From a virus: a stretch of DNA of 26,734 bases. Within the stretch, counting starts at the first letter, position 1; each line of letters opens with the position of its first letter. The stretch covers positions 1 through 26,734 of IMG/VR virus record IMGVR_UViG_3300046167_000217; one strand, written 5' to 3'. Shown piece by piece: positions 25,069 to 26,734 of this stretch. The notes beneath the pieces were generated by a model that saw only the letters and a list, made by a program, of their open reading frames with translations, was not told where the DNA came from and ran no database searches. Both the position numbers and the translations under genes were made by a program.

Positions 25069-25098
25069 ATTGTAGCATTAGTTACATCCTATAGTCAA
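25069..25098 (-). promoter_or_regulatory. Extended -10 promoter for the small-gene/terminase operon
   Basis: Minus-strand TTGACT (25093-25098), an 18-base spacer, and TACAAT (25069-25074) with TGC before it. TAACTAATGCTACAAT is one base shorter than, but otherwise the same as, the core at 4940. Start of transcription near 25062, about 28 nt before the TTG of the first gene. A dyad lies just upstream of the -35 box. Confidence 0.65.
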
Positions 25099-25099
25099 T

Positions 25100-25125
25100 A
25101 CCATAGTAAATAAATTAGCTATGGT
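25100..25125. promoter_or_regulatory. Dyad ACCATAG...CTATGGT, possible operator
   Basis: Seven-base arms at 25100-25106 and 25119-25125 with a 12-base AT-rich centre, right beside the -35 box of the promoter at 25069-25098. A similar CTATGGTT half-site occurs in the dyad at 25412-25427. It is a plausible site for a phage regulator. Confidence 0.4.
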
Positions 25126-25206: not shown

Positions 25207-25368
25207 TTATACTTCATTCACCCGATTTCGGATCTCACCTCTAGTGATACCCATATCCTTCAGTTGTTTATCCGACATGTTCTGTAAGATCCAATAATCA
25301 GCACGTCTTTGTTGATTACGTTGAATAGACTTCCAGACACCATTCAAGCTGCTAAACACATAGTTCAT
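25207..25368 (-). CDS. DUF1127 (YjiS-like) small protein
   Basis: The ATG at 25366-25368 has GGAG seven bases upstream; an earlier in-frame ATG at 25380 overlaps that site and is less likely. The product of 53 residues is MNYVFSSLNGVWKSIQRNQQ followed by RRADYWILQNMSDKQLKDMG and ITRGEIRNRVNEV. The pattern R-[A-x]2-x-L..MsDkqLkDmGiTRgeI is the DUF1127 signature. Alphaproteobacteria encode many such small proteins; in some species they affect RNA turnover and the response to phosphate or stress. A phage copy could adjust host RNA metabolism, which is inference. It is preceded by a palindromic promoter region. Confidence 0.8.
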   Translation of the reverse strand: MNYVFSSLNGVWKSIQRNQQRRADYWILQNMSDKQLKDMGITRGEIRNRVNEV

Positions 25369-25390
25369 AATATTCTCCATAGTTAAGTGT

Positions 25391-25430
25391 TTTGGTAACT
25401 ATATTATACCAAACCATAACTATGGTTACC
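25391..25430 (-). promoter_or_regulatory. Promoter with nested dyads before the DUF1127 gene
   Basis: On the minus strand TATAAT (25403-25408) is preceded by TGG, an extended -10; no good -35 is seen. Nested inverted repeats cover it: TTTGGTA/TACCAAA (25391-25397 and 25407-25413), AACCAT/ATGGTT (25412-25417 and 25422-25427) and GGTAAC/GTTACC (25394-25399 and 25425-25430). Such overlap suggests control by a repressor that covers the -10 box. Confidence 0.5.
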
Positions 25431-25431
25431 T

Positions 25432-25919
25432 CTATGGATTCCGAATACCCGTTATGCAGTCCGTAGCCTCTTCAACAGACATCTTAAACCATTCACCTCT
25501 ACGATCAGAGGCTACAGTATCTAACCGCTTATGCGCCTTAGATTCATCCTTACGTCTATCATCAGATGATATCGCACAATGCAGTACATAATCCCTAAGA
25601 GGACTAGAAGTCTGATAACTACTACAGCGATCATCAGCATCTATAGCCATACCTACCTTAACCCAATCAGGCCAAGCAGGATTAGAGATTACATAAACGT
25701 AACCTTCCTTCGTAGACGATAAGTTCTTAAAGCTAGAGAATGCAGCATCATTAAAACTCTTATAACGACCAGGCTTATGAAGAGGGTGAGACTGAGGAAT
25801 ATACTTACATCCACAAACATGCGGGTGGTATTTTTCTTAGTATGGGTATCTAATCTTTGCCTGTAACCAGAAGGGCTATAGTACCACAGTTCCCCGTCAA
25901 TCTCTCTGACCTCAGTCAT
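25432..25919 (-). CDS. T5orf172/GIY-YIG-like protein with Cys/His N-terminal segment, frameshifted
   Basis: The ATG at 25919 (MTEVREIDGELWYYSPSGYR) overlaps the upstream stop. After HTKK the frame breaks in an A5 run (25831-25835); one added A continues with YHPHVCGCKYIPQSH, then EGYVYVISNPAWPDWVKVGM, DADDRCSSYQTSSPLRDYVL, KAHKRL and RRGEWFKMSVEEA, ending ITGIRNP. This is the T5orf172/MUG113 branch of the GIY-YIG superfamily: GYVYV, KVG, the Arg of DRCSSYQ, and an EWF end motif. The usual catalytic Glu before the AH helix is uncertain. The HPHVCGC segment could bind zinc. Corrected length is about 162 residues. A Met at 25650 is internal. Function in phages (nuclease or DNA-binding) is unproven. 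Confidence 0.65.
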
Positions 25920-26232: not shown

Positions 26233-26273
26233 ACATAATCCACAAATCAAAAACAGGTTTCCCTGTACTGTGG

Positions 26274-26303
26274 ATATTAACTAAGTACCATAACTAGAGT
26301 CAA
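26274..26303 (-). promoter_or_regulatory. Promoter before the acidic gene
   Basis: Minus-strand TTGACT (26298-26303), 18-base spacer and TAATAT (26274-26279). The spacer contains TAGTTATGGT, the same ten bases found at the DUF1127 promoter. A small hairpin with a GAAA loop (ACAGG/CCTGT, 26253-26266) would lie at the start of the transcript. The -10 box is weak. Confidence 0.4.
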
Positions 26304-26307
26304 TAGT

Positions 26308-26321
26308 AACTTTGCAAAGTT
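26308..26321. promoter_or_regulatory. Perfect 14-base palindrome, possible operator
   Basis: AACTTTGCAAAGTT sits four bases upstream of the -35 box at 26298-26303. Its symmetry and position fit a binding site for a dimeric regulator. No second copy was found in the window. Confidence 0.4.
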
Positions 26322-26734
26322 TACATTTACCCGCTGCTAAGTTTTGCTAACTATTGTACGATGTTGACGGTTTCCAATCCTAGGACCCGCAATGCCGGGC
26401 CTGGTTTACGGTTACGATTTCCTGAAAATAGGTAGGGTTTGTATACGGTACGGGTACACCCCCCCCCTGGCACTCGCCCCCCTCAAAGAAAATAAAACCT
26501 AACAAATAAAATATAACAATAACAAGCAATTGCCCGGGTATTTAGTAGGGATTTAACATGCTGCAACCTTTTAGGTCGTGGGTTTACCCGGAAAAATAAA
26601 CAATATTAAGGGGCTAGGGTTTCAATTGGTTGCGGTAATTGGTCGAAGGGTTAAAGCCCTGGAAAAATGCACCAGGAAAACGCCCGGGAATTCTGTTGAT
26701 AGTTTTTAAAGGGCAGAGGGAAGGGCTTGGCGGT
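26322..26734. other. Contig-end stretch without genes, homopolymer-rich
   Basis: No frame of useful length or recognisable protein is present in either strand. The DNA has a nine-base C run (26459-26467), a six-base C run (26477-26482) and many doubled or tripled bases after 26520, unlike the rest of the window. It looks like a poorly resolved sequence end, or possibly a true non-coding terminus. A GC-rich imperfect hairpin (about 26381-26402) is the only structure seen. Confidence 0.5.

Follow-up and report, generated by a model that had tools for sequence, protein, structure and literature searches.

The minus-strand gene at positions 25207–25368 of the window (the whole 26,734-base IMG/VR record that was analysed) was found to encode a DUF1127 protein and to be preceded by a conserved promoter that overlaps a predicted hairpin over the ribosome-binding site. 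The explanation considered best, to which we give somewhat better than an even chance, is that the phage protein mimics and retunes the DUF1127 regulators of the host, its timing being set by the promoter-hairpin unit.

The open reading frame running from 25368 to 25207 on the minus strand encodes the protein MNYVFSSLNGVWKSIQRNQQRRADYWILQNMSDKQLKDMGITRGEIRNRVNEV (53 aa plus stop codon). The original prediction had assigned it to DUF1127 and had named a profile search as the test of that assignment. When this search was run, the Pfam model PF06568 matched the window protein over model positions 1–37 of 37 with 37.3 bits (E = 2.2e-9), compared to a curated cut-off of 23.3 bits. The C-terminal core of the family (L..L.D..L.DIG..R) was present, in the window protein in the version DMGITR, and in an alignment of 21 phage members residues R22, L28, L36, D38, G40 and R43 were invariant. 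The ATG at 25368 was preferred as the start codon because it is preceded by the Shine-Dalgarno sequence GGAG at 25375–25378 (minus strand), which was located by sequence and folding; an alternative in-frame ATG at 25380 would overlap it. Orthologues were present at the same place in isolate phages and in IMG/VR contigs, the best within IMG/VR being up to 84% identical, and the gene is therefore a conserved one and not a chance reading frame. That the gene is phage-encoded was likewise supported. The predicted structure of the phage protein consisted of one long helix and two short ones (mean pLDDT 82); it gave no significant match in the PDB, and a profile of the phage members retrieved no relative of solved structure. 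A PHROG search with the window protein produced nothing significant, phrog_26566 was matched by 16 of the 21 aligned phage members, and no family was matched in NCBIfam. A match to the influenza NS2 model in Pfam was weak and under its cut-off, and was discarded.

Judged by its sequence, the window comes from a marine HMO-2011-type podophage of Roseobacter-type bacteria, nearest to roseophages CRP-235 and CRP-3. Phages like these two are HMO-2011-type podophages (PMC9038755, PMC6918029). The terminase/portal DNA was 73% identical to that of CRP-235 over 43% of the query, and 72% identical to that of CRP-3 over a smaller part, while the tail protein was 70% identical to its CRP-235 counterpart. 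Membership of the HMO-2011 type is based on the terminase, portal and tail genes, which are homologous and identically ordered; the replication genes, including the DNA polymerase, lie beyond the window fragment. The DUF1127 gene was located a few genes before the terminase, on the same strand, in CRP-2, 3, 13, 207, 212, 235, 603 and 738. Each of the 11 isolated RCA-Roseobacter members examined has it a few genes before the terminase small subunit, and the CRP-13 and CRP-207 copies overlap the beginning of the small subunit gene. The CRP-13 gene (locus L003, 5483–5647) is absent from the annotation of its record. By gene number and coordinates, ORF47 (gp47) of CRP-3 was identified as the orthologue of the window gene, and gp69 of CRP-603, which is annotated as DUF1127 in GenBank, is a further orthologue at the same place. 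The published accounts of these two genes, as far as their accessible text goes, include neither the family-wide presence nor the promoter unit nor the hairpin.

Few small-protein families of bacteria are as large as DUF1127, and whether its members act on RNA or on protein is debated (PMC12501420). The small host members CcaF1, the A. tumefaciens SDPs and YjiS of E. coli and Salmonella resemble the window protein in being small, basic and made up mostly of the domain, and differ from it in that the latter is phage-borne, belongs to a lysine-shifted clade and has a phage promoter and leader. CcaF1 of Rhodobacter sphaeroides binds RNA and promotes the RNase E-dependent maturation of CcsR RNA (PMC10253847). 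The sensor kinase PhoR is bound by the Agrobacterium SDPs and by E. coli YjiS, loss of host DUF1127 proteins raises the expression of phosphate uptake genes, and cross-species complementation among host members has been reported (PMC12501420). Since a Rhodobacter DUF1127 protein complements the Agrobacterium phosphate defect, the RNA and PhoR roles may both hold. By analogy with these proteins, mimicry of, or competition with, host DUF1127 is the favoured role for the phage protein. The small, basic, helical protein would bind a partner of host DUF1127, namely a PhoR-like sensor kinase or an RNA/RNase E complex; we put a protein target at about even chances, RNA at clearly lower ones, and any other partner at low ones.

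The role in host RNA metabolism that had been suggested for the gene is one of two live options. In its strict form, the protein would be a CcaF1-like RNA-turnover factor that binds host or phage RNAs and guides RNase E. We hold this to be possible but not probable. CcaF1 comes from the same host family and binds RNA, and the window protein is itself basic (6 Arg, 3 Lys, net +4). However, arginine averaged 10.3% in the phage group versus 13.9% in the host members, with lysine higher in the phages (only the domain of each host protein was counted), Rfam scans of the window and five related loci matched no family at the gathering threshold, and YjiS was found to have no RNA association (PMC11707872).

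The promoter unit has the form GCATAnCGGGTAT-N33/34-TGnTATAAT and is sited almost only ahead of DUF1127. In the window, on the minus strand, the upstream element GCATAACGGGTATT occupies 25444–25457, 35 nt before TATAAT, with constant spacing in 23 loci. The extended -10, TGGTATAAT at 25403–25411 (minus strand), lies within the hairpin, and both its position and the motif TGnTATAAT were kept in most relatives. Transcription is predicted to start at 25396 (minus strand), the seventh base past the -10 hexamer, based on the usual spacing. The combination of GCATAnCGGGTAT and TGnTATAAT was common to most of the 23 compared loci, at a spacing of 34–37 nt; CRP-13 had no recognisable upstream element. 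Scanning IMG/VR with CGGGTAT-N33-40-TGnTATAAT and pooling the result with other loci gave at least 122 sites. DUF1127 followed 33 of them, 31 from the IMG/VR scan and two from isolates picked for DUF1127. Among the matches listed, the gap was 33 or 34 in all 33, and none of the 63 sites with a gap of 35–40 preceded DUF1127. A looser pattern, relaxed in its spacing and last base, occurred six times in 16 complete phages, each time before DUF1127, and the reversed control pattern did not occur in the same 16. The upstream element itself was found about once per genome. In 397 genomes of the host family the phage promoter was seen twice, which was taken as chance, so there was no sign that it had arrived with a host gene. 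A generic -35/-10 scan returned fewer promoters than in shuffles and was uninformative. The VtlR motif CAATGCAGCCATGCA of Brucella DUF1127 genes (PMC12595884) was considered and rejected, as it does not resemble the phage element. The interval 25069–25125 of the window (minus strand), between DUF1127 and the next gene, holds a second promoter-like site, TTGACT-18-TACAAT with TG, and an inverted repeat (25100–25125).

The hairpin encloses the extended -10 of the DUF1127 promoter and reaches into the ribosome-binding site. Its outer stem in the window is a perfect 9-bp pairing of the 5' arm CCATAGTTA (25417–25425, minus strand) with the 3' arm TAACTATGG (25377–25385, minus strand), the latter holding the first two G of the Shine-Dalgarno sequence, and an inner stem surrounds TATAAT. 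The inverted repeat was found in most loci, the Shine-Dalgarno sequence pairing with sequence at or upstream of the -10; the arm sequences vary among phages and their complementarity is kept. Perfect stems holding the Shine-Dalgarno sequence exceeded shuffles across 33 upstream regions less than 80% identical to each other, 13 of them at p < 0.05, with a Fisher combined p of 2.6e-10 that is optimistic because the regions are related. For stems of at least 6, the 5' arm began at or upstream of the predicted transcription start in 28 of 28. In eight isolates the folding z averaged −2.6, versus −0.4 at 116 starts of other genes in these phages; two of the eight scored low, their folding having been taken from an annotated start too near the Shine-Dalgarno sequence. 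Openness of the Shine-Dalgarno sequence was 0.11 at DUF1127 and 0.47 at the 116 other starts. The folding z of the window was −2.9.

A palindromic promoter belonging to the gene itself had been part of the original prediction. The gene does have its own promoter, and that promoter shows dyad symmetry, but the short palindrome ACCATA-AC-TATGGT at 25413–25426 (0.02 expected by chance in the window, for a pattern picked post hoc) was not kept in most relatives. What is conserved is the larger inverted repeat, one arm of which holds the Shine-Dalgarno sequence. A hairpin enclosing promoter and ribosome-binding site would describe the structure better than a promoter that is itself a palindrome.

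Such a hairpin probably times the production of the protein. The unit GCATAnCGGGTAT-N33/34-TGnTATAAT would drive transcription, probably with the help of a factor at the upstream element, and in the window the 5' arm lies upstream of the -10 and would therefore be missing from the locally started transcript. More generally, if transcription starts about 7 nt past TATAAT, the 5' arm would be excluded wholly or largely. The locally started leader, without its 5' arm, would be translated, and read-through mRNA from upstream genes would fold over the Shine-Dalgarno sequence and be translated poorly. The protein would then be made only when the local promoter fires, like the products of T4 genes e, soc, 49 and I-TevI, whose promoters lie in the DNA coding for the 5' strand of the helix that closes the ribosome-binding site (PMC3014915). 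The first two G of GGAG had a predicted openness of 0.00/0.01 in the read-through mRNA of the window and of 0.28/0.58 in its local transcript; with just this half of GGAG paired, only a modest effect is predicted for the window. The predicted difference was nil in loci L107, L078, L165, L155 and a few others, and reversed in L007, L023 and L164. Because DUF1127 comes first in the run of genes toward the terminase and structure genes, its promoter may also start or boost this operon.

In T4 gene e, long transcripts fold and lysozyme synthesis is reduced about 100-fold, while transcripts from the late promoter lack the 5' portion (PMC3014915); PMC2988022 is a second source for the T4 precedent. 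The window phage resembles gene e in the Shine-Dalgarno helix predicted for long transcripts, partial in the window, and in a local promoter within or 3' of the 5' strand, which from the predicted start site would leave short transcripts without that strand. It differs in the gene concerned and in its promoter, which is of the sigma70 extended -10 kind plus an upstream element where T4 has a late promoter; the roseophage switch is predicted from sequence and folding. A host DUF1127 gene, duf1127_1 of Sinorhizobium meliloti, is controlled through its mRNA leader and ribosome-binding-site pairing, transcription being attenuated via an upstream ORF (PMC12218461). The predicted phage leader, unlike that one, is only ~30 nt long and has no upstream ORF.

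The inverted repeat could instead be a DNA operator at which a dimeric regulator of phage or host represses across the -10, the Shine-Dalgarno sequence falling in an arm by chance. Repressors commonly work on promoters placed inside a dyad, the dyads of the window are nested and include the short palindrome, several of these phages have integrases, and CRP-3 can lysogenise (PMC6918029); an inverted repeat whose sequence changes in step would fit as well. However, the distance between the arms differs widely among phages and the 3' arm still holds the Shine-Dalgarno sequence, the arm sequences are unrelated between phages, and the window contains no second short-spacer ACCATA/TATGGT dyad. We therefore regard an operator as rather doubtful.

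Upstream of the promoter, and outside the DUF1127 unit, lies a T5orf172-like endonuclease gene (25435–25919, minus strand), recognised by Pfam on its 3' part and split in two broken frames, 25435–25650 and 25692–25919; its orthologue is intact in loci L010 and L016. Depending on the phage, the slot before the DUF1127 promoter holds T5orf172, endonuclease VII, HNH or no recognised nuclease (L010 4430–4936, L012 4096–4932, L017 601–1068, L019 802–1212, L021 4458–4898). Upstream of the slot, positions 26251–26734 of the window have no annotated genes and contain short blocks (~30–140 nt) conserved between phages. Counterpart gene-free stretches were seen in L002 (3099–3851), L005 (453–1310), L006 (601–1373) and L008 (1391–2196). 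Rfam, at its gathering threshold, matched nothing in these stretches of the window, L002, L005 and L006, and no tRNA genes were found in nine loci other than the window.

That three unrelated nuclease families fill this position, and that some phage pairs lose their similarity at the element or up to ~20 nt ahead of it, could mean that GCATAnCGGGTAT was kept as an insertion or target site of the adjoining free-standing endonucleases and is no part of a promoter. The element is present, though, behind genes not recognised as nucleases (in L018, judged by Pfam; in L023, a short unrelated ORF), and its spacing to the -10 and to DUF1127 is fixed. This account is unlikely, and from its conserved place before the -10 the element is likely an activator site or an upstream promoter element.

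Pfam-profile searches of whole records found DUF1127 in all 11 isolated roseophages of the HMO-2011-type group and in none of five relatives, HMO-2011, HTVC033P, HTVC103P, RHph_N3_13 and phiM6, whose hosts are SAR116, Pelagibacter, Rhizobium or Sinorhizobium. A published comparison of three RCA phages with HMO-2011 lists CRP-3 ORF47 among three genes that the RCA phages alone carry (PMC6918029). The suggested bearing of the gene on host range agrees with both results. Beyond this group, DUF1127 was confirmed by Pfam between MazG and ribonucleotide reductase in the Cobavirinae CRP-4, CRP-5, SIO1, ICBM1 and P12053L, and also in CRP-6, CRP-7, Sinorhizobium phage phiM12 and Agrobacterium phage Atu_ph07; CRP-114 scored 22.7, slightly under the cut-off of 23.3. 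Weaker matches, by tblastn alone, were obtained in Ochrobactrum phage vB_OspM_OC, Rhizobium phage RHph_I1_18 and the Methylophilales phages Melnitz, those in RHph_I1_18 and Melnitz being annotated as DUF1127. In SIO1 (NC_002519; L270, 2459–2641), a classic marine phage, the gene between MazG and ribonucleotide reductase carries no annotation. A literature search that covered journals other than subscription ones found no paper on any phage DUF1127 protein. As DUF1127 occurs in unrelated phages of similar hosts, its uptake has been recurrent. It is very improbable that the gene is a passenger, a host gene acquired by chance with no role in infection: it is small, has no known phenotype and belongs to a family common in the hosts (the phage profile matched 376 of 397 host-family genomes), but all 11 isolates still carry it although they diverge widely, most of them with the promoter conserved, and DUF1127 also turns up in several unrelated groups of phages that infect these hosts.

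In a tree from a short alignment, the HMO-type phage proteins grouped apart from 16 sampled host proteins (support 96/97), one host genus, with ~38% GC in the stretches read, nesting inside the phage group; separate clades for phages and this genus were not rejected by the AU test (p = 0.18 and 0.21). In this genus the DUF1127 gene has ordinary chromosomal surroundings. Transfer between the phages and the genus, in either direction, is possible. The proteins of L047 and L153, from other phage contigs, fell outside the phage group yet share the promoter. The phage-like DUF1127 genes of the low-GC genus (L206, L240–L242 and L239, 4725–4865) encode 46–52 aa. In four of its loci DUF1127 adjoins a gene for an SDR-type oxidoreductase, plus a transporter gene where the locus extends, and one genome has a second DUF1127 copy elsewhere.

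The conserved promoter-hairpin unit and the recurrence of DUF1127 across phages are more informative than the RNA reading. As a tentative wider view, which we would not rate as probable, unrelated phages of DUF1127-rich hosts may repeatedly have acquired DUF1127 to get hold of a host hub (PhoR signalling or RNA turnover). The HMO-2011-type roseophages would time it in the manner of T4 gene e, from a promoter that heads the genes for packaging and structure and is governed by one phage-specific upstream element. By retaining a small DUF1127 copy, phages would point to the part of the protein that matters and would offer a natural gain-of-function test, and the leader would be a simple timing device outside T4.
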